A stretch of 64,000 nucleotides of DNA, taken from NCBI RefSeq assembly GCF_016097555.1, contig NC_054704.1, positions 29,156,018 to 29,220,017 of the forward strand. Reading direction: 5' to 3'. Below, piece by piece: positions 23,211 through 62,249 of the stretch. This DNA is from Gigantopelta aegis (lineage: Eukaryota > Mollusca > Gastropoda > Neomphalida > Peltospiridae). A model generated the notes under the pieces. That model had not been told where the DNA came from. It did no database searches and saw only the letters and a program-made list of their open reading frames with translations. The position numbers and the translations under genes were made by a program. Position 1 is the first letter of the stretch, and each line of letters opens with the position of its first letter.

Positions 23211-23335
23211 AATGTACAATAGATTTTGATCTGCTTAAAAATAAATTGATCAACTATACAATAAATATATATTAATCAAAAATATATTATCCACATTACA
23301 ATATCACATCAAATTATTATTGAGCAAAGTATGTT

Positions 23336-34200: not shown

Positions 34201-37200
34201 ACGGGCGCAGCCATTTTGTACCATCCCAGTGAATACGCCCTCTGGCGAGCTGGTGGTTACGTAATACCTAACGTGTCACGTCAGGAATTAGTCTTCGAAG
34301 TGAAGAAACAAAACATACCCGATTTTTGCGGATGCATCGCAATGTTCTTTAATAATATCTATCCCAGTAACACAGCAACGTGTATATGTGGTTTATTTTG
34401 TATTGAAAAATAAACCACCATTGTCAAAGTGTTGAAATAACTATTATATTTTGTATATAAATTAACCCACGTACTTAAATAATAGTCGGGAGTGTTTTCT
34501 TGCTTAATTGGTCTTTTCTTTTCGTGGCCTGTACTTGTGGCTCTTGATTGGCAGGTGTATATTTAGACGGTCCCCAGACACTGTGTCTAGACACACTAAA
34601 AAGATGTGCCTCTTTTATTAAGATCACAGGGTATTGTGTAATAACCTCAAATCGTAATGGACTTTACCAGCTTTATTACTGTAAGTAATTCTGTAAAACC
34701 CTTGATTAAGTAGACTTTCCCATCTAAAATCAATTACGTAGTCCCAGAGAAATTTTTTTTATCACTTAGGTATCGTGAGTGGTCGTTTTTGCTCGAATGT
34801 ATCCTACAAATAGGCCTAATAATATGCATTTTGTCTTTGGATTTTTTAAAAGAAAAAAATACTACAACTCCATTTCGTTATATTGATGCAAATTGAAATA
34901 TATTTAGTTAGATAGCCAATAATCAATAAAATATTTACATGCTCCTATACCACGAAGGTTTCGAGCATGTCTATCCCAGGTTCGGCCACCGGATGCCAGT
35001 AGTCCAACCTGGGACAGAACAATTACTGGGGCAATTTTGTTATTTAAACAAACAGGGAAAAAGGACTTTACAATAAATAATTTTGTGCGTTATTTTCCCA
35101 AACAATATTTAATATACAGCAAACAACTAACAATTTGTAACGCAAATTTAGATCGGGCAGTCCTAAATATAAATATATTTTAAAATGTTTTTTAAATATA
35201 TTAATTAGCCCTCAAAATAGGGGTGGCAGGTGACTAGGAGGTTAGGCTTCAGCCACAGGAGGTTTTTTTTAATAGGGAGATATGTTTTACTTAGGGGTAC
35301 CCATCGTATTGGGGACTTCGGTGTGGCCGAAACCGGGGAAGGCTCCAGAAAAAAAAAAAAAATAATAATAATAATAATAAAAAAAAAAGTATTTAAACAG
35401 GGAAAGTTAAGCGTCTGGTGAGTCTGGCAATGTAAAAACGTATCCTGGCGAGTTAGATAGTTTATTATTCTATCAAGTCATTTATGTGGTTTTACAAGTC
35501 AGGTTGATGAAAGCGAAGCGCCTTGTCGTAAATTAGAGCATTTGTTTACACTGTGCATAATAGAAACGTTGGACCTGAGCTGACGTCACTTCGCTCCACG
35601 CTATACCACCGGACGTCACAAAAACTAAACAAAATGGCTGCCCCCAGTTAGCAGGAATAATCAAGGTTTTTTATTAATTCTAAAATTACGCGTTTTTCAT
35701 TTGTTAAAGTGTCAGTATATGTTGGTGGTCCAGGTATGCATCTTTCCAACACATAAGGCTCTTGCTGGAGTTTACTCTACCTTTAAGGCCACCTTTTTAT
35801 TCAGTCAAATCTAAAAATGTTTATTTTGTTTAACAACACCACTAGAGCACATTGATTTATAAATCATCAGCTATTTGATGTCAAACATATGGTTATTTTG
35901 ACAATCATAGAGAGGAAACCCTCTACATTTTTTCATTAGTAGCAAGGGATCTTTTATATGCACCATCCCACAGAAAGGATAGCACATACCACAGCCTTTG
36001 ATATACCAGTTGTGGTGCACTAGCTGGAATGAGAAACAGCTCAATGGGCCTACCGACAGGGATCGATCCTAGACTAACCCTGCATCAGGCGTGCGCTTTA
36101 CCACTGGGCTACATCTCACCCCCACCAGTCAAATCTAATAACAGTACAAACCAGCCACCTTTTTATTCAGTCAAATTCTCTCAAACAGTACAAAATTACC
36201 TGTATTAAGCATCTATCTAAGGCCTCATAATTTGAAATGATAATAATTTCAGCAAAAACAAATTTGAAATAAAGTAGAGCAGTCCCACATGTCAAAAAAA
36301 GAAGAAGAAAGAATGAAATAAAGAAAGAAAGAAAAATGACGAAAGGCAAGTGCAGAAACAGTCATCACTTTAGCATATTTGGGGGAGTATGCGAAGAGTG
36401 CAAGTCATGAAGAGGTCTGTACATGTCTTAAAGTGGCAGAGCCTAGATTCAACCTGTAAAAAATGGACACTAAGTTTGGTGAATCTACAAATCTGCAATA
36501 CGTTGGGATACAGTTGCATCAGAGAGAAACAAGAGTCTGTGATGTTACAGACGTACATGCATTTTTTTTAAATATGAAAAATGCATTTTGTGGTATTATA
36601 AATACCAGGATGACCAGAACCACTTCGGTAGTAGGGAAACTGATATTCTAAATGATAAAAATGTCATTTCAATTATCAAAAACTGCTCTAATAGTTAAAA
36701 ATATGCTGTAGTGTTTAGGGTCTGTCCCTTTAATAGGCCATCTTTTGGTGCTCTGATCGGTTATGGCTTGTTAGAGGTTTGACAGTGTTAACACATGCAG
36801 TCTCCAGGACTACTTACTGTGATCCTGTCTAATGGTGGGTACATGACAGACCACCGTGCTCTGATCGGTTATGGCTTGTTAGAGGTTTGACAGTGTTAAC
36901 ACATGCAGTCTCCAGGACTACTTACTGTGATCCTGTCTAATGGTGGGTACATGACAGACCACCGTGCTCTGATCGGTTATGGCTTGTTAGAGGTTTGACA
37001 GTGTTAACACATGCAGTCTCCAGGACTACTTACTGTGATCCTGTCTAATGGTGGGTACATGACAGACCACCGTGCTCTGATCGGTTATGGCTTGTTAGAG
37101 GTTTGACAGTGTTAACACATGCAGTCTCCAGGACTACTTACTGTGATCCTGTCTAATGGTGGGTACATGACAGACCACCGTGCTCTGATCGGTTATGGCT

Positions 37201-40200
37201 TGTTAGAGGTTTGACAGTGTTAACACATGCAGTCTCCAGGACTACTTACTGTGATCCTGTCTAATGGTGGGTACATGACAGACCACCGTGCTCTGATCAG
37301 TTATGGCTTGTTAGAGGTTTGACAGTGTTAACACATGCAGTCTCCAGGACTACTTACTGCGATCCTGTCTCATGGTGGGTACATGACAGACCACCGTGCT
37401 CTGATCGGTTATGGCTTGTTAGAGGTTTGACAGTGTTAACACATGCAGTCTCCAGGACTACTTACTGTGATCCTGTCTAATGGTGGGTACATGACAGACC
37501 ACCGTGCTCTGATCGGTTATGGCTTGTTAGAGGTTTGACAGTGTTAACACATGCAGTCTCCAGGACTACTTACTGTGATCCTGTCTAATGGTGGGTACAT
37601 GACAGACCACCGTGCTCTGATCGGTTATGGCTTGTTAGAGGTTTGACAGTGTTAACACATGCAGTCTCCAGGACTACTTACTGTGATCCTGTCTAATGGT
37701 GGGTACATGACAGACCACCGTGCTCTGATCGGTTATGGCTTGTTAGAGGTTTGACAGTGTTAACACATGCAGTCTCCAGGACTACTTACTGTGATCCTGT
37801 CTAATGGTGGGTACATGACAGACCACCGTGCTCTGATCGGTTATGGCTTGTTAGAGGTTTGACAGTGTTAACACATGCAGTCTCCAGGACTACTTACTGT
37901 GATCCTGTCTAATGGTGGGTACATGACAGACCACCGTGCTCTGATCGGTTATGGCTTGTTAGAGGTTTGACAGTGTTAACACATGCAGTCTCCAGGACTA
38001 CTTACTGTGATCCTGTCTAATGGTGGGTACATGACAGACCACCGTGCTCTGATCGGTTATGGCTTGTTAGAGGTTTGACAGTGTTAACACATGCAGTCTC
38101 CAGGACTACTTACTGTGATCCTGTCTAATGGTGGGTACATGACAGACCACCGTGCTCTGATCGGTTATGGCTTGTTAGAGGTTTGACAGTGTTAACACAT
38201 GCAGTCTCCAGGACTACTTACTGTGATCCTGTCTAATGGTGGGTACATGACAGACCACCGTGCTCTGATCGGTTATGGCTTGTTAGAGGTTTGACAGTGT
38301 TAACACATGCAGTCTCCAGGACTACTTACTGCGATCCTGTCTCATGGTGGGTACATGACAGACCACCGTGCTCTGATCGGTTATGGCTTGTTAGAGGTTT
38401 GACAGTGTTAACACATGCAGTCTCCAGGACTACTTACTGTGATCCTGTCTAATGGTGGGTACATGACAGACCACCGTGCTCTGATCGGTTATGGCTTGTT
38501 AGAGGTTTGACAGTGTTAACACATGCAGTCTCCAGGACTACTTACTGTGATCCTGTCTAAAGGTGGGTAAATGACAGACCACCGTGCTCTGATCGGTTAT
38601 GGCTTGTTAGAGGTTTGACAGTGTTAACACATGCAGTCTCCAGGACTACTTACTGCGATCCTGTCTCATGGTGGGTACATGACAGACCACCGTGCTCTGA
38701 TCGGTTATGGCTTGTTAGAGGTTTGACAGTGTTAACACATGCAGTCTCCAGGACTACTTACTGCGATCCTGTCTCATGGTGGGTACATGACAGACCACCG
38801 TGCTCTGATCGGTTCTGGCTTGTTAGAGGTTTGACAGTGTTAACACATGCAGTCTCCAGGACTACTTACTGCGATCCTGTCTCATGGTGGGTACATGACA
38901 GACCACCGTGCTCTGATCGGTTATGGCTTGTTAGAGGTTTGACAGTGTTAACACATGCAGTCTCCAGGACTACTTACTGCAATCCTGTCTAATGGTGGGT
39001 ACATGACAGACCACCGTGCTCTGATCGGTTATGGCTTGTTAGAGGTTTGACAGTGTTAACACATGCAGTCTCCAGGACTACTTACTGCGATCCTGTCTAA
39101 TGGTGGGTACATGACAGACCACCGTGCTCTGATCGGTTATGGCTTGTTAGAGGTTTGACAGTGTTAACACATGCAGTCTCCAGGACTACTTACTGCGATC
39201 CTGTCTAATGGTGGGTACATGACAGACCACCGTGCTCTGATCGGTTATGGCTTGTTAGAGGTTTGACAGTGTTAACACATGCAGTCTCCAGGACTACTTA
39301 CTGCGATCCTGTCTAATGGTGGGTACATGACAGACCACCGTGCTCTGATCGGTTATGGCTTGTTAGAGGTTTGACAGTGTTAACACATGCAGTCTCCAGG
39401 ACTACTTACTGCAATCCTGTCTCATGGTGGGTACATGACAGACCACCGTGCTCTGATCGGTTATGGCTTGTTAGAGGTTTGACAGTGTTAACACATGCAG
39501 TCTCCAGGACTACTTACTGCGATCCTGTCTCATGGTGGGTACATGACAGACCACCGTGCTCTGATCGGTTATGGCTTGTTAGAGGTTTGACAGTGTTAAC
39601 ACATACAGTCTCCAGGACTACTTACTGCGATCCTGTCTCATGGTGGGTACATGACAGACCACCGTGCTCTGATCGGTTATGGCTTGTTAGAGGTTTGACA
39701 GTGTTAACACATACAGTCTCCAGGACTACTTACTGCGATCCTGTCTCATGGTGGGTACATGACAGACCACCGTGCTCTGATCGGTTATGGCTTGTTAGAG
39801 GTTTGACAGTGTTAACACATACAGTCTCCAGGACTACTTACTGCGATCCTGTCTCATGGTGGGTACATGACAGACCACCGTGCTGGCCTGCTCGTAGTAA
39901 ATTGCCTTTCCACTAGTCTGTTTCTGGGCTGTTCTAGACAATGTAGACTGAAAATGTGCCCCCTCACAGTTCTGGTTGGTTCGTCTTTTGTTCGTAACTT
40001 GCACTGGCATCTAGAAAAATCCAATCAAGTTGACCAATGAAATAAATGAATGGATGAATCAATGCAGGGCTAGTTCTGGCATTCACCTAATTTGCATATT
40101 GCAAATTTTAAAAACAAAAGGGCGAATTCTATTTCAATTTGGTAAAATAATTTATTGTAATGATTGATATTTTGTTGGAAAATAAGAAAGTTTCTGCAAT

Positions 40201-43200
40201 TTTTTAAAGCTGAATAGGTAATTTTGCAACATTTTCTGCTCACCCAGAGCTACCTTGCAATAAATCAATGAATTACACACAAATATATTAGGTATTGGGA
40301 TGTTGACCAAAGATATATAATTAATGTAGGCTATATATAAAAATGAAAGTCACTTTAATGGCACTTCAAAATATTATTTAATAAAACTGCAACACTTGGT
40401 CTAAAGAATAAAAGAAAAAATCTATTGTCATTATATCTGCTTTAAATGGACACCAAAGAGTAAAAACAACATAACTTCAAGAAGTACATGAATGTACAGT
40501 GTTGTTATGATGCCACTTTGTCGATACTTGTAAAAACATTTTCTCTAAATTTTGTGAGTTGGACAGTATTTTATTTATTTAAAAATTATTATACTGGCAA
40601 AAGGAAGGAAAAAATGAAAGCAGCTATGGCTGAAAAAGTTAGCAAGTTGCATTACTTAAAAAAGTAAATTTTAAAGGTTAGGATTTCTGAAGATGCCCTC
40701 ACAAAACGATTTCCATGTGGGCGAAAAGCTACTTGCCACATCATATGTGGATATTGCTAATTTACCGTATTAAAAATTACTGTAAATTTGACACAGAATG
40801 ACTTCTCTTTTCTCTTTTCCATAATTTCATGAGAGTAGTTTATTACTCACTATCAATTTTCAAATCATAAGCATTGTTAGCCATACCAGTTTTTCTGTAT
40901 TCTTGAAAAATGCCATCACATCACGCATTACATGACCAAAATTGTCATGCTTGATGATATATGGTCGAACCCACACAGGAAGCTGTGATATGAAATCAGA
41001 GGATGAAAACCTGTTGACAATAAAAATAGTACTACAGGAATCACTTATTTAACACAATAATTTTGAATAACCTGCCAATATAACTCAGAGGCTGCAAAAT
41101 GCATTACACTGGCCATTGAATTATCAGTTATAGAGTACAAACTGGTATTATTGGGAACACACACGAGGTTGATGCTGTATCACAGACTGCTAATTTTATA
41201 CAATCTAAATCTGCCAGTTGCTAAACAAAAGGGAATACATACTTAATTCACAATACAAGGCGAATCAACAATTTGCAAATACAAATACAAGTCTGCAAAA
41301 CTAAATAAATCTATTATATAAGGGGAGTCAATCATTTGCAAATACAAATGAAATAACCTTTACAAAACAAAAGGGTTCTGCCATTTGCATTAAAATAAAA
41401 TTGTCTATCTACAAAACAAAACGTCTGCCATTATAACACAAGTAGAATCATCCTTTTAATTAATAATTTTGTGTCTTAAACAGTTACCTGAGAATAGAAA
41501 TAATTACATCCAATGATGTTAATTATTTTTGCTTTCAGTAAATAAAACAAAATTTGAAAAAACAGGAGACACTATTAGCTATGTACCGTGTATCACAGAG
41601 AATAATTGCTCCGAAATCATCTTTGTGTCTGATGACACGCCCAATTGCCTGATTGACAGCTCTTGATGCCTGCTGACGATACCACTCATTTCCACTAAGA
41701 CCCTAGAAAACCACCATCAGCAAATTAAATCAGTCATGAATGGTAGAATAACCATAATATTGTACAACTTGTATATAACATGGAAGAAATCACAAATGAT
41801 TCCCTCACTCTGAACTGGTTTACTAAAAACTCACCTCAAATAAAATAAATACATATACTAAGAAATTATAAAAATGGAGACCCCAGGGTTTTATTACCCA
41901 CCTGGTGAACGTCCGAGTGTATCATACAAATGTTTCTAAATGACATCATTTCATCAATAGGAGTAAGGTTGGAAGCAATTGTCTTATTTTACATTATTTG
42001 ATAAATAAAATACCACTTGTTTTCACTATATAATACGAAACTTGCGACTTCCTATGGTATCTGACCAAACGAAAGAGAGGGTCAGATACTAACATGGGAA
42101 GTTCTCCTGTTTAGTAAAAATGATATCTAGCAAAAACTTGTGTAGTATTGCCCCATTTTGCTCAGAATGCTGGAAATGCCATATATGATATGACCGTCAA
42201 AATGTTCACGAGCACTCAGGTCTCCTGAACATGCCACATGAGTTCTACAAAACCATATAACTTTTTCATGTTTTTAAAATCTCATTTCAGTACTGTAAAA
42301 CAACTGTTGCTCTGCTAACCTTTCTCATCTCGTTGAGAAACTGCATCTTGAGTAAGACCTTGGGGTCCATGCGTGGTGGGTACGGGAGACCGGTGATCAC
42401 CACCGCTCGCCCATTGATGTCAGAGAAATCCAAACCTTCACTAACCTGACAAAACAAAATAGAACTCTCAATGTCAGTATCTCCACAGAGGTATTCGAAA
42501 TATATATAACATTTGTGTTTTACGAGATAATAATACACATACATATTTATTCATTTAATGTACCTTTAGCACATTTTTAACTACAACTATTTGAAGCCTA
42601 ACATTTGGCTATATAGTTAGAGAGAATATCCATTGCCGACAGTTTATGCCACAAACGGTTCTTTTTTTAATGTGTGTTACAGCTAAAACAGTAAAAATAT
42701 TTATGAACTGCCCTAAAGAAAAGACAAAAAAACACACACCCAAAAAGGAGCTTTTTCTTTATATACATTTTTAACTCACCTTTCCACGACAAACTGCCAT
42801 AAATATTGCACCATTTAGAGTTGTATCCTGTATTTTATTATAAAATTCATCCATCACCTAGAAATTAAAAAGATTCGATTAACAGTAATTTTTAATAAAA
42901 GGCATTAGTTCCTCAAATGATTTAAATAATTATAATTAATGAAATTTATGTTTATGACAAACTTCCTGCCATTATACCACTTACTCTATTCAGATTGGAT
43001 TATGTCATTTAAAAACCTCAGAAGATGACATCATTACATCAAACAGGTCAATGAAAGGATATTAGAAACTGGATTTTGTGTATTTTTAACTAAGTAGAAG
43101 TATTGTTTGTAATTATAAAAACTGTTTGTAATGTTTTTGTGAATTTATCAATGTAAAACAGTCACAAATTCAGTGTACAATTTGTGACTGTTATACATTG

Positions 43201-46200
43201 ATCAATTAGAATTTTAAAAAAATAAATTCTTATATGAATACGCACATTATTAAATGCAACTTTTCCTTTTGGCTCCACCAGGATGGCCTTATACTGGGTG
43301 ATGCGATTCCAAATATTTTTATCCTGAAATGTACAAAAGTTAGATTGATATATATATATTTTAAATTGCTGGATTGAAAAAACTAACTGACGTATATTTT
43401 AAAATGATTAATATTACATAATTATATCCATCGACAGTTCAGGCATGCACAAAACTCAACTATTTCCAGAACAGAAGTTAACGATATAGTATGAGAAAGA
43501 AAATTCAATCCTGATGCATAGGGTAAAGTTAAACTGCAGAAACATTTTCAAGACCCAGAATAACCAGGCTGAAGATTTTAAAACCTATCCTAGTGCTATA
43601 TCAAAAAACCGTCATAAGCTATGTTACTACAATACACGTGATATTGCAGAGATGCCAACCCTAGTTGGAGTGCCATAGGAATCCAGGCCTTCAAAAATAG
43701 CAATCCCCCCCCCCCCTCCCAAAATAGGAATGTTATCAGTGATGGCTCAGAAGCGCATTTTTCACACTTTTGGTAAAGTCAAGTTCAAGGCCGTACCCAA
43801 TCAGCAAACATCGGGGCTATTCAGAAGACCGATTGCTAGACTGGTTTATTCTATATTGCCACGCTTGCTATGCTCGCTATTCGGAATCCATAAGTTTAAA
43901 GAACAAGGCAGAAAACCAGTGTACGATTGTTGACGGTGAAGAGGGAAAAAGTTCCATTTCTCCAGAGTTAACATTTGTGCCTTCCAAAATACAATCCGAC
44001 ACCAAATACACAAAATTACGATTTTTTGTTATAAAAATCTGAATTTCGAACAAGACAATCGTAATAATGTAATCTATGCTTCAAATTCGTAATGATTCCA
44101 CGAAATTCGCAATGGTTGGCATCTCTGGATATTGTAGATGGTTTTACAACATTGTAGCACTAAGACAGCTTCGAAAATATTAACTCAGAATTGTGGTTAC
44201 ATTGTTTCTTATCCACATAACATACCCAGGTCTTACTTGATCATTTGGTTACATCAATTACACTTGCATAATTGGTTATTTTAAACTAACATGAAAATCT
44301 GAAACACCAAATTAGAAATGTTTTCAATATTTTTAATAACATTTCTATGCAGAGTAAACAAAATACTTACTTTCCAAAATTCAACACATTTGTCCATGAC
44401 TGGGTAAGATGGGAAAAAGACAAGAAGACCATTTGGAACAACACGGGCAAAGTTCACTGAAAAATAAATAGAAGAATGTTTTAACAAGGCGATCATAAAA
44501 AAACAAACCCTGTTTGGTTTACCGGAGACCGAACTCATTTCACCAGCTGTTTAGTAGTAGTCATTTAGACACTGAATGAAAACATTAGGGTGAACTAGGT
44601 CATACATGGGGTAATTTTTTTTTAAATAACATTATTATAATAAATACACAGTGAATTAAAATATCTGCATGATTAATATACTGTAACATGCATGTGTAAG
44701 TTGAAAATTTCGCCAAATCAAGTATTTAAAGTTAAAAATTGCAAAAACCCAGTTGTTTTCTAATAAAATAGAAATTATTACATGAAAAGTATTCACCAAA
44801 TTAAAATAAAATTTGCCAATTGTTTTTAAAATTCGCAATTGGCGAATTTGGTAAGTGCCAGAGCTAGCCCTACATCCTGTAAGGTTCACCATGTCCATTG
44901 CCAAATTAATCAACTTCTAATTTTTATACAAAGTGGCTACAACATTTAGTCATTATTCTTTAAATTAACATCATTTTAAAATTTGTTCCAGCACAATCCC
45001 TAATAATCTGTGGGAGCATAACATATTGCTCGTTCAGTTTTGACCTACAGTCAAACCTGCTCTAGCAGCCACCTCAGTTAAGAAGCCACCTGGGTTAAAG
45101 ATTCCAGACTTCAATTCTCCCAAATCGTCTAATACAGTTTAAACTTACCTGTATTGTTGTTGTTGTTGTTCAATTTATTTTCATGCTTATATCCAATTAA
45201 AGTTCAAGCATGCTGTCATGGGCACACACCTCAGCTATCTGTCCAGAACAGTCGGTTAGTTGTTAGTGGTTAGTGAAAGAGAAGAGGGTGTAGTGGTCTT
45301 ACACTTACCCATTGAGTTATGAGAACTCACTCTGGGCGGCAGTCTTATGTCTGATGCCACTACACCACCAAGGCCGGTATTACCTGTATTAAGCTGAAAC
45401 CTGTTTTAAAAGGCCACCTGCTGTTTCTGGCTGTTAAAGACAGGTTTGTCTGTATTTATTTAAGGTAAAACCAGAAAAAACTTTTCATGCAAAAATATAC
45501 TCACCAATGGAATTTCCTAGAGAAGATTGGTATGCAGGATCAAACCTGAAAGTTGAACAATGCCTTAAATCTAGTGTGAAATACTACCAGTAAGGGAGGT
45601 AACTCAACATAAATATTACAGTAAATTTACATCCCTTTCTTCTACCACAGACAAATATTATATCAAGCTGAAAATGTTTGCCAGACAGTCACTGGCAATG
45701 GTGCTTAGTTATTCTTGTTATTACATCTCTTATTGTCCGTTATTTATTTTATTTTCATCATATTGTTAATCTCAACCAGGGGCACATAATTTGACAAAAC
45801 ATCGTAAGTTTACGTCTGCAACTAGCAGTTATACCAGACATTCATTTTACATGACATCTTTTTTTATGCAGAAAATTACATCATTACAGAAGATGGAGCA
45901 TTTTAAGGACAAAAGAAAGTGAAATATGAGTTCTTCTTACTATATTTGTTGTACTATAATAGTAATGAGGATTGTGGTTTAGTCATAGATTTATGTTTAT
46001 GTGCAAAACTAGGCTTACAATGTTTTATGAAATTGGGTCCAAATATTTGTTAATGAGTTTCATACCGTGTTTGGTAACTTGAGTTTAGAACTGTTCCATC
46101 TGGACCTTTTCCAAGTAAGTTTACAGACACCTGGTATTTCTGTATCACATGTGGATTCTCCAGTGTTACGGGAAATGGACTGAAAGTAAAACAAGTTTTG

Positions 46201-49200
46201 TAAAATGAAAAAAGACACAATAAATAGAAAAAACCCCAGCAACTACACAGTTTTCTCCATTAATTTAATCAGAAATCAATCACCATAGATTTTATTTTTT
46301 AAGATATGAAGGTCACCCACTGTACATATAAATATTTTTATGCTGCAACCAGTTTCTATTCACCAATTAAGATGACCAATTAAAACAAAGTTATAAACCT
46401 ATACTAGCAGATTATAACTTTTGATGTTATGCATGCATGACATCATATGCATAGCTACATTACAAAATCATGGTACAGTGTTGCTGAAATAACAAAACTA
46501 ATAGCATTTCCCCTTAATTGTTTTGGAGTGCAGGATAAAAAAAAAAAATAGTTATGACATAGGATATCAGCTTTATTCTGTTCAGGTTGAATGGAAAATT
46601 CTGCTCAACACGATTTGCAGAATGTTCTATTCTAACTTTCACATGATACAGACGATATACTACAAGTAGCTCAACACACGTTCTGAAATATCACAAACAA
46701 AATATACTAATTACAGCTCAACACACTGAAATATTACTAATACAAGATCTTTCATACATTTTTTTTTTTAATTTTTTTTTTTTTTTCATTCTCTATTTTT
46801 CAATCTGATGCAATTATCCTGTGTCATACAACTTGTTTCTTTTGTTAACTTGACATATAGCATGGGACGTACGTTTTTGGCAAGCAGCCAGTTGCAATAA
46901 TGACAAAAATTATTTTATGCATTTATTCAACCAAGATTCTAGCATGTTGTCATGGGCACTAAAAATGTAGTGCAGGCTATCATCTACTCTGCAGAAATTA
47001 ATATATCCTTTACTGCTGGTTCAGCTAAACTGGAAAAACAAATTAAGAACTGAAATCCTTTATTTACACAACTGTACATTAGAACTTATCATGAATGTAA
47101 AGGCACATTTGTGTATGTATTTATGGTGAAAACTCACATCTGCATTTCCATTGAAAATGAAGAAAGCGGTGAGAGTGTGCCACTCGTTAGAATGATGGAC
47201 TTTACTCCATGAGCCTCAAGATCTTTCATACTGTGACCAGGGCTAAAACACCAGTAGCTCAACACACGTTCTGAAATATCACAAACAAAATACACTAATA
47301 CAAGATCTTTCATACTGTGACCAGGGCTAAAACACCAGTAGCTCAACACACGTTCTGAAATATCACAAACAAAATATACTAATACAAGATCTTTCATACT
47401 GTGACCAGGGCTAAAACACCAGTAGCTCAACACACGTTCTGAAATATCACAAACAAAATATACTAATACAAGAATTTTGATACTGTGACCAGGGCTAAAA
47501 CACCAGTAGCTCAACACACGTTCTGAAATATCACAAACAAAATATACTAATACAAGATCTTTCATACTGTGACCAGGGCTAAAACACCAGTAGCTCAACA
47601 CACGTTCTGAAATATCACAAACAAAATATACTAATACAAGATCTTTCATACTGTGACCAGGGCTAAAACACCAGTAGCTCAACACACGTTCTGAAATATC
47701 ACAAACAAAATATACTAATACAAGATCTTTCATACTGTGACCAGGGCTAAAACACCAGTAGCTCAACACACGTTCTGAAATATCACAAACAAAATATACT
47801 AATACAAGATCTTTCATACTGTGACCAGGGCTAAAACACCAGTAGCTCAACACACGTTCTGAAATATCACAAACAAAATATACTAATACAAGATCTTTCA
47901 TACTGTGACCAGGGCTAAAACACCAGTAGCTCAACACACGTTCTGAAATATCACAAACAAAATATACTAATACAAGATCTTTCATACTGTGACCAGGGCT
48001 AAAACACCAGTAGCTCAACACACGTTCTGAAATATCACAAACAAAATATACTAATACAAGATCTTTCATACTGTGACCAGGGCTAAAACACCAGTAGCTC
48101 AACACACGTTCTGAAATATCACAAACAAAATATACTAATACAAGAATTTTGATACTGTGACCAGGGCTAAAACACCAGTAGCTCAACACACGTTCTGAAA
48201 TATCACAAACAAAATATACTAATACAAGATCTTTCATACTGTGACCAGGGCTAAAACACCAGTAGCTCAACACACGTTCTGAAATATCACAAACAAAATA
48301 TACTAATACAAGATCTTTCATACTGTGACCAGGGCTAAAACACCAGTAGCTCAACACACGTTCTGAAATATCACAAACAAAATATACTAATACAAGATCT
48401 TTCATACTGTGACCAGGGCTAAAACACCAGTAGCTCAACACACGTTCTGAAATATCACAAACAAAATATACTAATACAAGATCTTTCATACTGTGACCAG
48501 GGCTAAAACACCAGTAGCTCAACACACGTTCTGAAATATCACAAACAAAATATACTAATACAAGATCTTTCATACTGTGACCAGGGCTAAAACACCAGTA
48601 GCTCAACACACGTTCTGAAATATCACAAACAAAATATACTAATACAAGATCTTTCATACTGTGACCAGGGCTAAAACACCAGTAGCTCAACACACGTTCT
48701 GAAATATCACAAACAAAATATACTAATACAAGATCTTTCATACTGTGACCAGGGCTAAAACACCAGTAGCTCAACACACGTTCTGAAATATCACAAACAA
48801 AATATACTAATACAAGATCTTTCATACTGTGACCAGGGCTAAAACACCAGTAGCTCAACACACGTTCTGAAATATCACAAACAAAATATACTAATACAAG
48901 ATCTTTCATACTGTGACCAGGGCTAAAACACCAGTAGCTCAACACACGTTCTGAAATATCACAAACAAAATATACTAATACAAGATCTTTCATACTGTGA
49001 CCAGGGCTAAAACACCAGTAGCTCAACACACGTTCTGAAATATCACAAACAAAATATACTAATACAAGATCTTTCATACTGTGACCAGGGCTAAAACACC
49101 AGTAGCTCAACACACGTTCTGAAATATCACAAACAAAATACACAAATACAATACAAGATCTTTTATACTGTGACTGGGGCTAAAACACCAGTAGCTCAAC

Positions 49201-50083
49201 ACACATTCTGAAATATCACAAACAAAATACATTAATACAAGATCTTTCACACTGTGACCGAGGCTAAAACACCAGTAGCTCAACACACGTTCTGATATAT
49301 CACAAACAAAATACACAAATACAATACAAGATCTTTTATACTGTGACCGGGGCTAAAACACCAGTAGCTCAACACGTTCCGAAATATCACAAACAAAATA
49401 CACTAATACAAGATCTTTCATACTGTGACCAGGACTACCTTTTTTGTCTGAATCACCAGATGTGGCCCAAGAATCAATCTTCTTTTTCTTGGCAATTTCC
49501 TCCTTAAAATGAATATGAACCTGAAATAATAATCCAGAATATGCTATACACTGCTCAAAGAATAGTGACCTCACAACAATATTAACAGTTACAGTACCAC
49601 TTGATGTTGCTACCATTGTGGGACCTGCACAATTTTTTATTCAGAGTCCTCAACAACTCAAAGCCAGACATTATTTTTTATGGGGAGCTATCACTCTCGC
49701 TCCTCATTGATGGCTCCTTTGAGACTAATAGAGGTATTTCACATTCCTATTGCGCATGCGCGCGAAGAGTAACGTCCCTTGACAAAATAGACTGAAACTA
49801 GTCTATTTACAAATTGGGGGGCGTGACAGACAGGTTGTTATGGGCGACTTGAGTAGCTTCGTAGGAGACTTTTAAACTTTGGCAACTAACATGTACATAT
49901 TTCGAATTAGATGGTATAATGGCCGTAGAAAACGGTCCGCTGAAATTTACAGCGGAATGGTTCAAATTAAAAAGCAGTGCAACAACTTGGACAAAGTCTC
50001 TGCGACTTTCATCCGAGGGTTTTGATAACGCCAGATTAAAAGACTATCTCGTAAAAAGTATAAACAAAACATTTGACAGACAT

Positions 50084-53900: not shown

Positions 53901-56900
53901 TGAAAATAAAAGGTACTAATTATTATTAAATACAAACACATACCCTTAGGATCTCATTGAATTTCCCAAGACCAGCTCCTTTGGTGTGCAAAACACTACC
54001 AGCACCTTTAATACAGAAAATAAAACTTGATTATGATAAAAATAAACTAAAACAGAAAACACTAAAAAAAAAAAAAAATTAGTAGTGATTTTAATCTGCT
54101 GTCAGAAATTTCATTATAAATTTTTTAAATATGCAATCAAAAGTTTTATTATCAGGTTGCAAACATTCAGTCAGCAGATTCATTATCAATTTTCTGACCT
54201 GCAAACAGAAATTTTATTATCAGTTTTCTAATATGCATCTAATATACAGAGAGAAGTATGCTTCATAAAAAATAATGTTAAAGGCAGATTATATTTAGAA
54301 ACGTGCTACTAGCTGGGAAAGCTGAAAGCCGATTCCACTTGTCTCACTGGTCAAGTATTAGTTTTTAATCCTACATCTTACTTACCTTCATTGGTCAGAT
54401 ACGACACAAGTTTCTCCAGCAAATCCAGAAGGTAGTTCTTGCTTTCAAATGTAATACCAACTCTTGACAACAATTCAAATATAAACCTGATAAACAAAAA
54501 ACAATACAGTTAACAATTTAAAAATGTAAAAACAATTACACCTTTAACAACAATGTAGGGTATTTGTTATGACAACTTAGTTTTTTGTTGAAAATATAGA
54601 TATTTTTTAAAATATGTTATCCAGTGAAATTTATTTTTGAGTTTTCAATCTGTAAAGCATTCCTTAATCCAAATTTTTCAAGGATATCTTTAAAGTCACT
54701 GCTCCACAACTGGTGTAACAAAGGCTGGGGTATGTACTATCCTGTCTATGGGATAATGCATATAAAAGATCCCTTGCTGCTAATAAAAAAAGGAGACCAT
54801 GGAGTGCTGACAGGTTTCTTCTCTAATTATCTCTGTGGTCTTTAACCTATGTCTGACACCACATAACCACAGTTAACTCTGTTTTTTTCTTTCTAAATTT
54901 TGTGTCGACTATTCTGTAAACAAAACAAATGTTAGTAACAAATCATAGTTTTGTATAAAGACGACAAAAATAAGACATACATGCCAGGCTTAGTTAATCC
55001 TGGTCCATTTTTAGGAATTTCAACTGTATCCAAGCTGTCTTCTAAATCCTTCAGAACAGCTGCAATGGTAACAAGCAATACATTGAAAATAGAAAACTCA
55101 AATACCATGTCATGTACTAACAATACAGGAAAATAAAATTATTAACTCATTATTACATTTCAGTTTCAGTTTAGCAGCTTAATATAGTCCAGTTTAGAAA
55201 ATGCATGAAAACTATAATATAACATACAGAAATACTGTTCTGAATTTGTCTTTGATGATTATAAATAGGGTTACCGTTGCAGTATTTCACTTATTCAGTT
55301 ATTTGTTAAACAAACTTGAAAAACAATAGCAAACTGAATATCCCATTTATTATCATGTTTTAAACAATATGGCTTTGTGAAATTATGATGAAGAATGGAC
55401 AGTGTATATGTTCAAATCTGATAAGTTTGTAATGTCAAGAACAGCTGCCATGGTATATATCATTACCTAGTGGGATGTATTACTTTGATAACAAACATGT
55501 TATTGAATTCTATTGAGTAGTGATATAAATTATCAACTAAAGTACATCTCTTGAAGTCAGAAAATTGTACAAGAAGTAAATCTTGAAATAATTTCAACAA
55601 GAAGCTACAGTAAAAATCAACTGATATTGAACAGATTCAAATATGATCTAATTTACCAAGTAATACAAGAACACAAAATTCCATACTTTAGACATCATAC
55701 CTTTCAACTTGATGAGATCTTCCAAAGTAAAATCAGGTTCTGAAAAAGAAAACAAGTCAACTCACTCCATACGAGCCAAATATCTTTTCATGAAGTGGGG
55801 TAGAAGGCAATCATTGCTTCTCAGATTTCAAGATGGAAGCAAATGATATTTGAGGAATTATTTTCAAAATTAGACTGGTACTGTAACTTTTTTAACAGCG
55901 ATGTGCAATACTTAAAATAAAAGCATAAGATTTACATTGTCATTGTTGAAAACATATTATGCATTTTGACAAGCATTTGCTGCTCGTTTCATGTGACTAT
56001 CAAGCCTTGCTTTTACTGCACTAAATTATGTGAATAGCATTACTGTCATTCAAACATTATTTTGTGTAAGACTAACAACCTACCAATGGCAGTAGAATCA
56101 CCAAATTCAGTAACTTGGTTTTCTATTTCACTCAAGTCAATGATTTTCTCCATCAGTCGAGTTGTCTCCTCAATAGCAGTTGCCAAGTCAACAGAAGTCA
56201 GGTCAAAAGAAGAACTCTCTTCACAGATTTTTTCCTGTAAAACAGTGATAATGTGATAAGCAGATTTTTAAAAAGTAATGTACATGTCATCCTGAATACT
56301 TTATACCATTCACAGAAATGGAAGTAAAAGATATTACAAAGGTTAACGTCATGAAATCCTAAGGGCAAACCTTTAAAACATGGCCAAAGTTGCAAAAGGT
56401 TATCATTGCACATTTATTTACGTAATAGTTTAACATAGACAAAAAATAATGTATGCAAATGGATAAACAACTGCTTCAGTCATGTGACCCAAACAGGAAG
56501 ATGAGGACTCACTCAATGGAAGCTTTAAAGCCATCCCATTGGGGTTGGCATGTTTGGAACATTCTACTAATATAGGCAGGGAACATTTTGTTTTCAAAAT
56601 CTTGATAAGAGATATTTCTAGTCAACTGAAACCTAATTAGCAACTACTGTTTAACATTTTTTAATTTGTGTAGTGATCTCTGAAACTTGCATTGCAAATT
56701 GTTCCTTGAAAACACAATTAGTTATGGTCAGGCCAAATTGAAAAGAAAATTCCTGCTATTTACAAACGTTACACATGAATAGTGTTTAGATAAATCTGAA
56801 CCAGAGTTCAAACTTGACTGACTCATAAAAGTCACCATGATGTTTTTTCTTCTAAAAAAAAACAAATTCAAACTATCTTGAAATTTATTTATTTTACCAT

Positions 56901-59900: not shown

Positions 59901-62249
59901 AAAAATTTGGGTATGGTCAAGTGTCATCTTTATCACTCTTTTCACCAAAATAATATATATACATATATACTGTGTACTAGTATAATTCAAGACAGTAAGA
60001 GAGACGAGGCAGTCTTCCTTTGTTTAGGGGCAGAGTATGTGGGCGTGGATAATTTTTGGCATGCTTCCATCAGAGAACTGGTCAAGCATGCCTGTCATGA
60101 GCACAACCTCTGAGTTCTGTCCATGACAGGGAATTAAGGGCAGATTTACCCGGGAAGTTTTTAAGTAAAACTTAGCACCTGACCGAAAAATCAAGTGTTA
60201 ATAATAAATTAACGGTGATGGAACTTCTTGTGATATTATTACAGACAGACCTGTAACAAATTGCAATTATTTGCAGGGCTTCTAGACTGTTTACAAAATC
60301 CACTAGCCATGGGATCAGTGATTTTAAAAATGTACTAGCCATGATTAAAACTTCACCAGCCCTACTTTACTTAATATAATTTTACTAATACATTGTAGTA
60401 ATCATCACATATATTAACTAAAGAGGGAGATAGCAATTAGTAACACTAAGATTGGGGGGGTTTAATTGGGGGGCAGGATATTCATATTTACAAAACAGAC
60501 TTAAATGCAACATTTGACAACTTTTTTTTCACTAGCTGTTGGGCATGGCAATATTAGTTATTTACTAGCCCAACATTATATCACTAGCCATGGGAGTGGG
60601 GCTACCATAATATAGAAGCCCTGTATTTGGTATGATCGCCAGCAGTAGTACCAAAAATAATTTATTTAACTTATTTGATTACACATGTACATATATGTAG
60701 ACATAATCCTATAATATAGTTTACTTTTGGTAAAGCCTGGAATGGCCAATGTGTTTTTGTCAGTGGTGTATTTCCATATATTCCGCTATTACCATAATAT
60801 TTAACCCTACGTACTGGTCAATCCCTCTTCCCAGGTTGGTATTTAGAGACTTAAAATGTTGATTAATACAGTGATATATGATAAAGATATCTGTTTCAAT
60901 AATGTCTCACCTTTGCAGTGTTGTTGGGTTCTTTTCTAACCTGGTCATGAATGCAGAACTGTTCTCGTGATCCCAACACACAAGCTTTTACACTGTAAAC
61001 AAAATGAAAAAATGCCTTATAAAAAGTTAAAACTGAAAAATAAGGTAATGCATGAATGAATCAGTCAATTAATCAATTGAATGTTTAACAACATTTCTTT
61101 CCATTACATGTATACCCATTTAATTTTACTATAGTAATGAACATAATTCTGACAGTGTAATAAAAAAGTATTTTATTCATCATGTGTGAATAAATACAGA
61201 ACCACATCAGGGCCGTAGCTAGCAGGGGGGCAAGAAAAAATTTATAGAAACTTAAAGAAAATTGTCTTCTTAACTGTTTAAGGAGTTTTAGACTATTAAC
61301 TACTCAGTTGCCCCCACCCCCCCCCACCCCCAACAAAAAATCCTAGCTACGGCCCTGCACATACCAGTTATTTTGCTATTTATTGCACTTGTTTATATAA
61401 TGCGCAAGAACTTGTGCAATAAATAACATGGCAAGACAACTTGTATGTAGTTCTGTCTATATATTATATGTGATAAGATATCTGAACGAACCTGTTGTAT
61501 GTTGTTCTTTTGAGCTCCTGGACTGCCTGAGACAGCTGGGAGTGAGTCCTTGATGCATAAATGATCTTGGGAACAACTGAAATAAAATAAAAGTTTTGTT
61601 AAAGACTGATGAAAACTAGTACCAAATTCACTAGTTTACAATGTACTTCTTAAGGACTGCTGAAAACTAGTACCAAAATCCTTTTGTTCTTCTTAAGGAA
61701 TCTATCAATAACTACCATCAAAATCTCTGTTCCGCATTAAAAAAATAATTAAAGAAAAAGGAAGAAAAACAACAATTACAAAATTCACTATTACCATAAA
61801 ATATAATATACTCAATTGTTTTGTTAACTAAATTAACAAATTCACAACTACTCTACATACTTCTTGAAAATTGCTGAAAAATAATAGCAAATTCCAAATG
61901 ACTACTATCGTGCAGAAAAACCAATTAAAAACGGTTATCAATTCACTAGTGACATGTACCGTACTCCAAAGGTACTATTTAAAAATTATTTAACCAAAAA
62001 ACACAACAGAAAATTGTTACCAAATTCACTAGTGCCCCAGGTACTTCCCGAGGACTCCTGCAGTTTTGATGCCAGTCTCTTGAGTGTGTCATCATGTAGA
62101 TTGTCACGATCCTGCAGAACACTACCAAGTCCCGTCTGCTTCTTAAACTCTACCGCAGCCTTCTTTCCCACAAGCCAGGCCAGACTGGAACACAGCAAAC
62201 ACAATGTCTTCCCAGTTCCAGTGGGACTTTCCAAGATTCCATTCACTCC
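23336..62249 (-). CDS. RTEL1: RTEL1, regulator of telomere elongation helicase 1 (33 exons found; first exon(s) not found)
   Basis: RTEL1 is a nuclear superfamily 2 iron-sulfur (XPD/FANCJ group) 5'-3' DNA helicase that dismantles D-loops, T-loops and G-quadruplexes. On the minus strand I placed 33 exons with GT-AG borders and matching phases, totalling 3822 nt, or 1273 residues and TAG at 23336-23338. The sequence shows Walker A S-P-T-G-T-G-K-T, four Fe-S cysteines, D-E-A-H, the [12 protein letters not shown] region, the G-L-D-F-S-D and Q-A-I-G-R-V-I-R-H motifs, one harmonin-like domain and a C-terminal RING. Vertebrate RTEL1 is about 1220-1300 residues, so length fits once about 35 missing N-terminal residues are added. 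Two minisatellites arise from its exon borders. A PIP box was not seen. The gene spans over 39 kb because its introns are packed with repeats. Confidence 0.95.
24340..25075. other. RTEL1 intron with a 26-bp tandem duplication
   Basis: ATTTTAACCCATATGGCAGG occurs twice in tandem (about 24450 and 24476). Open plus-strand frames across here show no domain and are interpreted as chance in repeat-derived DNA, since this is inside the final RTEL1 intron. Confidence 0.45.
26020..26125 (-). pseudogene. Duplicate of the RTEL1 exon 31 end with its donor
   Basis: ACATACCAGACTT at about 26064, with ACATCTGTATTGCATTTTCA after it, repeats the text at 26587-26645. On the sense strand this is about 50 nt of exon 31 3' end, the donor GTATGTTCA and about 50 nt of intron. 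The copy lies 523 bp inside the next intron, beyond a SINE. Confidence 0.8.
26143..26531 (-). mobile_element. SINE, head 2 + tail B, minus, with 11-bp TSD
   Basis: Head 2 at the right (complement of CCGGCCTCGATGGCG) is joined to tail B at the left (GTTTTATTTAACGCCGCCAC). CAATTATTATT stands on both sides, at about 26127 and 26532. The element sits between the two copies of the exon 31 end. Confidence 0.85.
26593..27303 (-). CDS. RTEL1: RTEL1 exon 31: long low-complexity linker
   Basis: 711 nt, phase 1 to phase 1, between the harmonin-like domain and the RING. It is rich in Ser, Lys, Thr and Asn, with irregular repeats of an S-K-T-Q-L/V-K type and no recognised domain. In vertebrates the equivalent stretch holds a second harmonin-like domain, which I do not see. 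The donor is GTATGT at 26592-26587. The 3' end and donor are duplicated about 520 bp downstream. Confidence 0.8.
27755..33907 (-). CDS. RTEL1: RTEL1 exons 25-30: linker and harmonin-like domain
   Basis: Exons 33804-33907, 33220-33258, 30967-31026, 29917-30012, 28351-28495 and 27755-27886. The first ends [12 protein letters not shown]; the third holds a basic K-R-R-R-I-V-I-K that could serve as nuclear signal. The last two encode the harmonin-N-like fold: [24 protein letters not shown] and L-T-G-M-S-C-G-Y. Vertebrate RTEL1 carries two such domains; only this one was found. The small exon of 39 nt rests on good splice sites and phase only. Confidence 0.88.
28614..29015. mobile_element. About 400-bp repeat with GGTATCGGTA-type ends, copy 1
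   Basis: It shares GTGATTTACCTCAGTATCGG, TATAAATGCATGCCCGAGTT and TTTACTAAATGGCGGGAAAC blocks, reverse-complemented, with 57775-58135. Both copies are in RTEL1 introns. Non-coding; probably a non-autonomous DNA element. Confidence 0.65.
29530..29891 (-). mobile_element. SINE, head 1 + tail B, minus, with internal duplication
   Basis: The tail complement GTTTAACGACACCACTAGAG is at 29545, and the head complement CCACTGGGCTACATCCC is at the right. A segment with AGAGGAAACC and ACATTTTTCCAT is present twice (about 29622 and 29682). Confidence 0.85.
30216..30364. mobile_element. Near-perfect hairpin element
   Basis: The two arms, about 70 bp each, pair around 30288. ATTACGAAATCGTAAA pairs with TTTTACGATTTCGTAGG, and TGTGACGTCACTATAGC pairs with CATAGTGACGTCACAGC. 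The ends are GGGCCAATATTTTCAAAGC and GCTTTAAAAATATGGGCCC. Foldback MITE without coding capacity, in an RTEL1 intron. Confidence 0.8.
30523..30738. mobile_element. Small TIR element, CAGTGAAAC ends
   Basis: Left end CAGTGAAACTTCTAAATCGG, right end GGGGGTTTCACTG. It contains a poly-C run at about 30557-30577. About 215 bp. Confidence 0.55.
31027..33219. other. RTEL1 intron, mostly unique AT-rich, poly-C near 31893-31919
   Basis: No SINE was recognised. A TAA-type microsatellite lies at 31517-31541. The open frames in it have no recognisable domain. Confidence 0.5.
33480..33562. repeat. Short imperfect hairpin
   Basis: TGGAATACTCTTCAAGAAGG pairs with CCCTCTTGGAGAGTATTCTA around a short centre. 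Confidence 0.5.
34064..35765. mobile_element. About 1-kb interspersed repeat, copy 2, with a nested insertion
   Basis: The same ordered blocks as at 19215-20250, but split after a TAGTTAGATAG stretch by an insertion at 34916-35450. The 10-bp repeat AGTTAGATAG at 34906-34915 and 35451-35460 is the target-site duplication. Copy 1 shows the empty site. Confidence 0.75.
34916..35450. mobile_element. 535-bp insertion with 10-bp target duplication
   Basis: Not recognised as one of the other families. It contains ATTGGGGACTTCGGTGTGG, an A-rich tract with ATA triplets (about 35350-35390) and no open frame of note. Confidence 0.6.
35812..36124 (-). mobile_element. SINE, head 1 + tail B, minus
   Basis: GTTTAACAACACCACTAGAG at the left, and the head complement with CCACTGGGCTACATC at the right. 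Confidence 0.85.
36125..36749. other. RTEL1 intron between SINE and 108-bp array
   Basis: Nothing recognised. A phase-compatible RTEL1 exon was looked for and not found; exon 24 is at 39842-40010 instead. Confidence 0.5.
36750..39881. repeat. 108-bp minisatellite, 29 units, derived from RTEL1 exon 24 end and donor
   Basis: The unit start GCTCTGATCGG recurs every 108 bp from 36750 to 39774 without a single length change, giving 3132 bp. On the RTEL1 strand each unit holds a copy of about the last 42 nt of exon 24 (GTACCCACCAT, AGACAGGATC), a donor GTAAGT and 66 nt of intron. Units near the real exon mostly carry ATG and CGC at two codons. Most distal units (36.7-38.6 kb) have ATT and CAC instead, with interspersed exceptions. 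Plus-strand reading frames here are artefacts. Confidence 0.95.
39842..40010 (-). CDS. RTEL1: RTEL1 exon 24, parent of the 108-bp array
   Basis: Acceptor TTTTTCTAG, then M-P-V-Q-V-T in phase 0. It is 169 nt long and ends ...[10 protein letters not shown] with a GTAAGT donor in phase 1, which joins exon 25 exactly. Vertebrate RTEL1 has a comparable M-P start after the helicase core and an H-V-P-S-L-K-like segment, which supports the call. The last about 42 nt and the donor are the portion repeated 29 times immediately downstream. The peptide sequence is otherwise poorly conserved. Confidence 0.8.
40020..40880. other. RTEL1 intron; possible MITE at 40064-40250
   Basis: GCAGGGCTAGTTCTGGCA at 40064 and the blocks after it resemble, in reverse, the segment at 44700-44880 (GTGCCAGAGCTAGCCCTAC). 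They also resemble, in the same sense, 62290-62400. The family is interspersed in three RTEL1 introns. Confidence 0.45.
40887..46179 (-). CDS. RTEL1: RTEL1 exons 16-23: second helicase domain
   Basis: Exons 46066-46179, 45505-45545, 44371-44456, 43246-43323, 42780-42857, 42320-42445, 41587-41702 and 40887-41010. They encode [55 protein letters not shown] and motif [11 protein letters not shown]. The last exon ends [10 protein letters not shown] with a phase-0 donor. These are the C-terminal RecA-like domain motifs, and none is missing. Confidence 0.95.
41703..42319. other. RTEL1 intron, nothing recognised
   Basis: AT-rich with no clear element. Confidence 0.4.
43140..43212. repeat. Small inverted repeat, 23-bp arms
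   Basis: TCAATGTAAAACAGTCACAA pairs with TTGTGACTGTTATACATTGA around an 8-nt centre. It lies in an RTEL1 intron. A regulatory RNA hairpin cannot be excluded, but a small MITE is likelier. Confidence 0.5.
43324..44370. other. RTEL1 intron, C run near 43705
   Basis: No recognised gene or element. Plus-strand open frames at 43730-44042 lack domains. Confidence 0.45.
45155..45390 (-). mobile_element. SINE-like element, head CCGGCCTTGGTGGTGTAGTG, minus
   Basis: The head resembles head 2 in sense but has a different body, with ACTCAATGGGTAAGTGTAAG and a TTGTTGTTG end at the left. The ATGACAGCATGCTTGAACTT block also occurs near 60075-60120. Confidence 0.6.
46664..46757. repeat. Isolated degenerate copy of the 84-bp unit
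   Basis: ACAAGTAGCTCAACACACG, ATATCACAAACAAAATATAC and ACAAGATCTTTCATAC follow in unit order but with internal deletions. It lies about 380 bp downstream (RTEL1 sense) of exon 15, outside the main array. Confidence 0.8.
47138..49520 (-). CDS. RTEL1: RTEL1 exons 14-15, separated by the 84-bp repeat array
   Basis: Exon 14 is 49439-49520 (V-H-I-H-F-K-E-E to D-S-D-K-K), donor GTAGTC, phase 1. Exon 15 is 47138-47270 when the last acceptor (GATATTTCAG) is used. It encodes [13 protein letters not shown] and then [11 protein letters not shown], a conserved helicase motif, with donor GTGAGT in phase 2. The intron between them consists entirely of units copied from the acceptor region and the first 53 nt of exon 15. 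Any of the inner acceptors would keep the frame, so the spliced form is uncertain. Confidence 0.9.
47220..49433. repeat. 84-bp minisatellite, 26 full units, derived from RTEL1 exon 15 acceptor
   Basis: GATCTTTCATACTGTG recurs exactly every 84 bp from 47220 to 49068 (23 units). It then appears at 49157, 49241 and 49330, with 5-bp insertions and a 2-bp loss, followed by a partial unit at 49412. On the RTEL1 strand each unit is 53 nt of exon 15 start, the 31-nt intron end and its acceptor TTTCAG. Units are 28 codons with no stop; the frame is kept through at least 47134-49143. Two units have GAATTTTGATACTG instead, eight units apart (47472, 48144). Confidence 0.95.
50129..50811. mobile_element. 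Tc1/mariner-type MITE inserted in a TA repeat
   Basis: Left end CAGTCAAACCTGTCTTAAGC, right end GACAGGTTTGACTG. Both ends flank a (TA)n tract, so the expected TA target duplication is consistent but cannot be seen separately. The inside carries several GTGGCCGCTTAA and ACAGGTGGCCGCT repeats. Non-coding, about 680 bp. Confidence 0.75.
50813..50903. repeat. (TA)n microsatellite
   Basis: A long pure TA run that, with 50096-50127, flanks the MITE on both sides. Confidence 0.95.
51108..51830. repeat. Three diverged copies of a roughly 120-bp segment, with a hairpin between
   Basis: TTTACTGTTAATGTGTTTTC and GTAGGAACGTCCTGTACAGA-type blocks occur at about 51136-51220 and 51740-51830, and more diverged at 51560-51640. 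A near-perfect hairpin at 51277-51415 separates the first two copies: ATTTCTTTTACGTTCATCG pairs with CTAGATGAACGTAAAGTAAT. Confidence 0.6.
52497..56234 (-). CDS. RTEL1: RTEL1 exons 8-13: Arch-domain region
   Basis: Exons 56084-56234, 55701-55739, 54981-55059, 54386-54486, 53944-54005 and 52497-52571. They encode [10 protein letters not shown], a short L-E-D-L-I-K-L-K exon, G-L-T-K-P-G, an [11 protein letters not shown] helix and I-V-F-S-Q-E-P-S. All have counterparts in the same order in vertebrate RTEL1. This part is less conserved than the helicase motifs, as expected of the Arch domain, which gates DNA entry. Exon ends have normal GT-AG sites. Confidence 0.88.
52661..53461. mobile_element. 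DNA-transposon-derived element with CCGTATTT ends, TA target
   Basis: Left end CCGTATTTCCCCGTGTATTA followed by TGCGCATTTCC. Right end TGCGCATAATACATGGGAAA followed by ATACGG. TA stands on both sides. About 800 bp without a recognisable transposase. Pogo/Tigger-type ends are the closest analogy. Confidence 0.7.
54700..54885 (+). mobile_element. SINE body fragment, headless, related to tail A
   Basis: CTCCACAACTGGTGTAACAA, GCATATAAAAGATCCCTTGC and a degraded 3' end (ACATAACCACAGTTAACTC). Confidence 0.7.
56990..60992 (-). CDS. RTEL1: RTEL1 exons 3-7: Fe-S cluster domain and DEAH box
   Basis: Exons 60911-60992, 59729-59789, 59123-59207, 57647-57731 and 56990-57055. The four cysteines expected to bind the 4Fe-4S cluster are all present: in [21 protein letters not shown] and K-V-C-P-Y-Y. 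They are followed by [12 protein letters not shown], then motif II (Walker B) I-L-D-E-A-H-N. Phases 2, 0, 1, 2, 0 at the entry of each exon agree with the previous donor. A TIR element (60265-60625), a 400-bp repeat (57775-58135) and SINEs lie in the introns. Confidence 0.93.
57775..58135. mobile_element. About 400-bp repeat, copy 2, inverted relative to 28614-29015
   Basis: TTTCCTGCCATTTAGTAAAA, CGGGCATGCATTTAAAGCC and ACCGAGGTAAATCACCTCA blocks are the complements of those in copy 1. Confidence 0.65.
58207..58374 (+). mobile_element. SINE, head 1 + tail B, with a central deletion
   Basis: AGCCCAGTAGTAAAGCGCTC, then tail B (CAATGTGCTCTAGTGGTTC). The body between the second box and the tail is mostly lost. 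Confidence 0.75.
58696..59090 (+). mobile_element. SINE, head 2 + tail B, plus
   Basis: CCGGCCTCGGTGGCATTGTG, then ACTGGGTTCAGATCCCAGT, a body with AACCCTGAGTGAGTGCTCCG, and tail B ending TGGTGTCGTTAAATAAAAC. Confidence 0.9.
60265..60625. mobile_element. MITE with CAGGGCTTCTA / TAGAAGCCCTG ends
   Basis: The inverted ends are 11 bp perfect. ACTAGCCATGGGA occurs near both ends in direct orientation. About 360 bp in an RTEL1 intron. Confidence 0.7.
61209..61360. mobile_element. Short MITE with AGGGCCGTAGCTAG ends
   Basis: The inverted ends AGGGCCGTAGCTAG and CTAGCTACGGCCCT are perfect over 14 bp. A poly-C stretch lies near the right arm. About 150 bp. Confidence 0.75.
61492..62249 (-). CDS. 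RTEL1: RTEL1 exons 1-2 found: Walker A and motif Ia
   Basis: Exons 62021-62249 and 61492-61576. The first begins in phase 0 after a CTGCAG acceptor with G-V-N-G-I-L-E-S and the ATP-binding loop S-P-T-G-T-G-K-T, then T-L-C-L-L-C. Its second half is a diverged linker ending S-T-W-G-T-S-E-F. The second exon encodes [14 protein letters not shown], motif Ia of the XPD-type helicases. The upstream coding exon, expected to hold about 35 residues with the Q-type motif, is not recognisable up to 64000. A possible donor (GAG then GTAGAG on the minus strand) sits at the very window edge. Confidence 0.93.

Follow-up and report, generated by a model that had tools for sequence, protein, structure and literature searches.

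Exon–intron boundary minisatellites copy splice sites many times over in RTEL1 and in two further genes of the vent snail Gigantopelta aegis

Minisatellites whose units straddle an exon–intron boundary and carry copies of its splice signal, called mirages, are little known and have, to our knowledge, been described from amphioxus. In the portion of that description available, the amphioxus globin genes BflGb6 and BflGb9 and the Adh3 gene contain boundary minisatellites (3 or 6 units of 150-160 bp in BflGb6, units of 10-72 bp in Adh3) and are spliced regularly, as determined by reverse transcription polymerase chain reaction (PMC3087553). For the lancelet PGBD5 gene, the accessible part of the source reports boundary tandem repeats of 60 and 108 bp whose splice-site copies give no aberrant mRNA; one annotation had made these repeats into extra residues, a solution judged less plausible by the authors, and troponin C is cited as a further case (PMC3902484). 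Here we describe two arrays of this kind in the RTEL1 gene, carried on the minus strand of a 64,000-nt window (the whole stretch of DNA analysed) of the deep-sea vent snail Gigantopelta aegis. RTEL1 carries both mirror forms: acceptors are multiplied before exon 16 (array A) and donors after exon 25 (array B).

The best protein match for the open reading frame (ORF) query from the window was an NCBI predicted protein, P0001, annotated as 'regulator of telomere elongation helicase 1-like [Gigantopelta aegis]' (1307 aa), with 1561 bits against 708 for the runner-up among the best 120 of 4667 matches. Its residues 35-1307 map exon by exon to the minus strand with exon cores at about 100% identity (tblastn), and a genome search with P0001 placed exon 1 just outside the window. 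Splice refinement against this protein, with exact agreement around each junction as the criterion, recovered 32 introns, all 32 bounded by GT and AG. The shortest of them measures 334 nt; the exon sizes listed range from 39 to 234 nt, plus one of 711 nt. The exons flanking array A, which an earlier note on this DNA had numbered 14 and 15, are coding exons 15 and 16 according to the NCBI protein. Exon 15 (49439-49520, minus strand, like all RTEL1 features below) ends at the donor AAG/GTAGTC, which ranks third lowest among the 32 RTEL1 donors in a leave-one-out matrix. It is followed by intron 15 (47271-49438, 2168 nt) and exon 16 (47138-47270, 133 nt), which in P0001 is joined via the last acceptor.

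Analysis with Tandem Repeats Finder (TRF) and splitting into units revealed that intron 15 is composed of array A, an 84-bp minisatellite of 26 units (47217-49437; 26.3 copies, 97% matches). The array begins at the second base of the intron and extends 54 bases into exon 16, so that the earlier note was right in stating that the intron is filled, save for its first base. The unit is also the one described there: 31 nt of intron end with its acceptor, followed by the first 53 nt of exon 16. On the minus strand, 26 acceptor-like ends follow one another, and the real one comes last, between 47271 and 47270. The AG is retained in 25 of the 26, the outermost end (49379) reading CGG instead of CAG. 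Of units 1-25, all are 84 nt long except units 1 (87 nt) and 3 (89 nt). Of the 25 putative decoys, 22 are identical to the real acceptor over positions -20 to +3 (47268-49138; 23-mers spaced 84 nt apart, with first bases at 49138 down to 47290), and none is identical over -31 to +53. Reading of the unit sequences placed an A at position -23 in units 4-24 and a G in the real acceptor.

Nineteen of 25 array A units are identical, and units 1-3, adjoining exon 15, are diverged. Diverged outer units are the usual edge effect in tandem arrays, and the homogenised interior with its diverged edge appears as in tandem turnover; the view that the outer units, as 'relaxed' copies, are a sign of selection is not upheld. 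Units 15 and 23, eight apart, have three substitutions in common, which points to a block duplication within the array. Scraps derived from array A and resembling its inner-type units, absent from the earlier note, lie in the next intron (46636-46757) and hold one extra acceptor with the same 23-nt core (first base after the AG at 46682). A transposon-borne repeat was considered and rejected: of 24 exact matches to a 33-base segment of the unit in the genome (1.149 Gb), 23 fall in array A and one in the scraps. A processed mRNA copy, which would reveal the junction used, was also looked for in the genome; the exon 15-16 junction occurred 0 times at up to 3 mismatches.

Array B, also absent from the earlier note, is a 108-bp minisatellite of 29 units (36748-39884, TRF). 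In its unit, the terminal 43 nt of exon 25 are followed by the donor GTAAGT and by the opening stretch of intron 25. Exon 25 (39842-40010 by tblastn and splice refinement) measures 169 nt with the first donor, the one used in the NCBI protein, and intron 25 starts at 39841. We counted 29 GTAAGT donors including the real one, in agreement with the 29.0 copies given by TRF, with a search pattern that itself required GTAAG; the preceding triplet is GCA in 14 and ACA in 15. The exon part is identical in the units nearest the exon, most later units being 1-4 nt off and some identical again. Nine unit types occur among 28, with no diverged edge comparable to that of array A. Read-through past the first donor meets an in-frame TAG at once, after the residues SK.

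A relative of array B exists in single copy. Besides the exons, P0001 found a second set of five matches in the genome, at 29.117-29.124 Mb of C6, the contig of the window. They mark a partial RTEL1 duplicate (about 29116000-29124050) that holds exons 20-25 with introns, 55 kb past the 3' end of the gene; the two copies of exon 25 are 78 kb apart. The duplicate aligns piecewise to window positions 36324-43337 at about 72-92% identity, its coverage ending short of array A. In the duplicate, exon 25 ends in front of a donor-like GCAAG, and an insert of about 344 nt, similar to window positions 60274-60623, separates this from the remainder of one unit, beyond which the post-array intron follows. 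With GC replacing the GT of the exon 25 donor, the duplicate is probably decaying. Since its 108-bp segment is present once, with no exon copy behind, array B probably expanded within RTEL1 after the duplication, the alternative being a loss in the duplicate. Reading of the sequences showed that the array B breakpoints in RTEL1 have AGCAC in common, as expected of short-homology duplication. Elsewhere in RTEL1, the end of exon 32 and its donor (26533-26642) are copied once in the following intron (26007-26119; 85% over 113 nt), 526 bp apart, a possible founder stage of a boundary array.

In both RTEL1 arrays, the units span a boundary with exon and intron parts and carry a splice signal, and both the acceptor and the donor form occur. 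By this anatomy, arrays A and B would belong to the mirage class and, as far as the literature was covered, extend it to a new phylum: no mollusc mirage was found among the open-licence papers listed, judged by title or the start of the abstract. The exon–intron boundary anatomy is the same as in the amphioxus genes. According to the part of the source available, those are chordate cases, with 3 or 6 units in BflGb6, whereas RTEL1 is a gastropod gene with 26 and 29 units and both types together; unlike them, array A fills its intron and is open in frame (PMC3087553). PGBD5 resembles RTEL1 in having tandem repeats that abut or overlap splice sites in a conserved gene, but its repeats number 2-7 imperfect copies, and the accessible portion of the text describes no single-copy relative (PMC3902484).

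To place RTEL1 in context, two conserved genes with many exons, POLE (C2:42402001-42462000) and PRPF8 (C3:66768001-66808000), served as controls, picked before their repeats were seen. With gastropod and bivalve proteins, 48 exons were placed in POLE, the matches listed lacking the POLE protein of G. aegis itself; 38 were placed in PRPF8. In these two genes, exon edges were defined manually on the basis of tblastn alignments of proteins from relatives, and those distant from the arrays are approximate. Acceptor-side arrays were found in POLE at region bases 16637-16905 and 20004-20266 and in PRPF8 at 7069-7238. Donor-side arrays lie in POLE at 37213-37797 and 56248-56522, and in PRPF8 at 25991-26323 (seven donors including the real one) and 30560-30795. 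In all seven, homology assigns the outermost copy to the real exon. Boundary arrays thus recur in G. aegis genes, with four of the acceptor and five of the donor type over the three genes.

Taking the sequence evidence together, we give a probability of about 0.87 to the reading in which array A is a mirage with its copies on the intron side, the last acceptor giving normal RTEL1 and the inner acceptors being decoys. The founding step would be a tandem duplication across the exon–intron boundary, and the array would have grown by slippage or unequal exchange. Because the copies sit on the intron side, normal RTEL1 would still be produced. The local core is unable to decide the site choice, being shared in full (-20 to +3) by the real acceptor and 22 of the 25 decoys. 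We infer that exon 15 is spliced to the last acceptor, chosen through the own donor of exon 16 (exon definition), which among identical acceptors would favour the nearest one; the inner acceptors would see at most low-level use. P0001 uses only the regular sites, namely the last acceptor of array A and the first donor of array B. Engineered duplications of splice sites in beta-globin by Reed and Maniatis reportedly tested proximity and exon context with tandem identical competitors; compared with these, the RTEL1 sites are natural and present in 26 and 29 copies.

Several points weigh against this reading. Because nothing in the immediate sequence sets the real acceptor apart from 22 decoys, some mis-splicing is likely, in frame for array A. 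Pseudo-exons may arise inside the array from other GT sites of the unit, which score up to 5.62 with the gene's own donor matrix. P0001 is itself a prediction. Finally, the published G. aegis genome, presumably the present assembly, was built from PacBio reads with wtdbg2, Racon and Pilon, and such a long-read assembly with polishing may have smoothed copy number and unit identity.

The last point bears on whether array A is an assembly artefact, in which a few true copies were inflated, or reads stacked, by the assembler. The use of wtdbg2 followed by short-read polishing and the 19 identical inner units would suit such an origin, which we nevertheless regard as very unlikely in view of the diverged edge units, the indels, the two variant units and the scraps in the next intron. 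The independent POLE and PRPF8 arrays, moreover, have diverged units. The copy number of 26 may still be wrong.

A further property of array A is its open frame. Entry at acceptor 3 (49119) would add 1848 nt with no stop, equal to the 22 modules of 28 residues named in the earlier note; reading onward from acceptors 1 and 2 runs into stops. A single 681-aa open frame spans 49179 to 47134, reaching into exon 16. If the inner acceptors were used purposely or often, the result would be a series of RTEL1 forms in which the end of the ARCH domain carries between 1 and 22 additional modules. To the open frame and the 22 matching decoys can be added an acceptor score of 12.59, the eighth highest among the 32 RTEL1 acceptors. 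We consider this outcome highly improbable. The NCBI predicted protein contains no module, exon 15 joining the last acceptor directly. With the 681-aa frame as query, no module protein was found in the best 120 of 817 matches (proteins of up to about 1190 aa); these matches were RTEL1-type proteins, which mostly covered 6-10% of the frame and in a few less identical cases up to 16%. The module peptide occurred in none of the 333 proteins examined. The insertion point, after residue 461, falls within the ARCH_RTEL1 domain (285-472), whose interruption would probably harm the helicase. Earlier acceptors would lengthen exon 16 from 133 nt to 217, 301 nt and more, and exon definition would prefer the 133-nt form. 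In eight of the nine boundary arrays, use of the neighbouring internal site shifts the frame or meets a stop; array A is the sole exception.

A reading of the open frame as a sign of selection for a modular protein is not supported. In addition to the module-free prediction, the frame itself is unremarkable: 15 of the 31 other RTEL1 acceptors are also preceded by 31 nt or more of stop-free sequence in frame, making an open 31-nt intron piece nothing special, and the chance of a length such as 84 being divisible by three is one in three. An accident is the best explanation for the 28-codon open frame. Introns of 31 nt between the units, already held in the earlier note to be probably too short, were likewise rejected: the smallest of the 32 mapped RTEL1 introns measures 334 nt, and the pseudo-donor CTT/GTATTA scores 0.17 with the gene's own matrix, against 2.6-12.1 for 31 of the 32 real donors and -0.2 for the remaining one.

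It is also conceivable that intron 15 itself was gained by tandem duplication. The intron is practically all array, and its donor GGTAG lies at the array edge. In the parts of the sources available, tandem-duplication intron gain has been published (PMC4974935), as has a mirage model of intron gain (PMC3087553). The former case resembles RTEL1 in the tandem duplication of an intron–exon structure with branch site, acceptor and part of the exon; as far as that text extends, it created a new intron and exon, whereas the RTEL1 gene model is unchanged (PMC4974935). Every array A unit contains 31 nt of intron-like acceptor sequence, which argues that the acceptor existed before the array, and the other eight boundary arrays sit in introns that also hold non-array sequence. 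We therefore regard a gain of intron 15 in this way as unlikely.

To evaluate the frequency of such arrays, minisatellites with a period of at least 40 bp inside the three genes were counted, giving 15. TRF rows with shorter periods were excluded, as was a pair of arrays (43 bp x 2 and 40 bp x 6) preceding the first POLE exon mapped; overlapping rows were merged manually, the GT-rich PRPF8 stretch 14795-17693 counting as one array. Nine of the 15 span an exon edge (2 of 4 in RTEL1, 4 of 6 in POLE, 3 of 5 in PRPF8). Under a founder-unit null, in which the unit falls at random and units wholly inside exons are set aside, P was 5.6e-6 for all arrays, 3.4e-5 without array A, which had prompted the analysis, and 8.1e-5 for the control genes. 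Under a whole-array null, with random array placement and placements swallowing an exon set aside, the corresponding values were 0.006, 0.020 and, for the pooled control genes, 0.037. Nine of 232 splice sites, about 4%, are copied (32, 47 and 37 introns in RTEL1, POLE and PRPF8).

An excess of arrays at exon edges is likely, but hinges on three genes, the null model chosen and the counting rules. Several results weaken the claim. Only the pooled founder-unit null is strong, and per gene the whole-array null gave P values of 0.058 (POLE), 0.065 (RTEL1) and 0.32 (PRPF8). Adding the two largest shorter-period POLE arrays (30 and 20 bp) brought the POLE count to 4 of 8 spanning an edge (P 0.14). 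Self-comparison of RTEL1 (within 3 kb, low-complexity sequence left out) revealed about eight further local duplicate families, which are outside the 15 and of which one, the exon 32 end, spans an edge. That tandem duplication is drawn to splice junctions, an edge-linked mutational process or selection for spare sites shaping the genome and feeding intron evolution, is a possibility that we find doubtful.

What is new is the frequency of boundary arrays in the G. aegis genome rather than a modular helicase. As each of the three gastropod genes studied contains such arrays, with as many as 29 copies, the phenomenon seems to extend across animal phyla and to lend itself to genome-wide study. For spliceosomal choice among identical sites, such as the 26 acceptors and 29 donors of RTEL1, each array serves as a natural experiment; the arrays may also supply raw material for the gain of introns and for changes in exons. 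In practice, gene predictors can turn them into false exons.

Other repeats were noted in the same genes and in the window. In POLE, a 61-bp x 5 array (region bases 17666-17977) ends about 4 nt short of an exon and was scored as not spanning. An intronic 20-bp x 223 array (22579-27033) has the unit TAGTTTTTGTGTTACAACAG, which resembles a bare acceptor without exon sequence. In the RTEL1 intron after exon 2, a weak, marginal match (61623-61662; 77.5% over 40 nt, E 0.003) may be a copy of the end of that exon. A 155-bp x 5 array occupies window positions 18188-18962; a short stretch of it recurs at 80-92% identity at about a dozen other places on both strands and probably belongs to a mobile element. 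On the plus strand, ORFs at 3-419, 8611-9282 and 9996-10601 resemble, by eye, a viral or mobile-element packaging ATPase, a zinc-finger protein and a nucleotidyltransferase, respectively.
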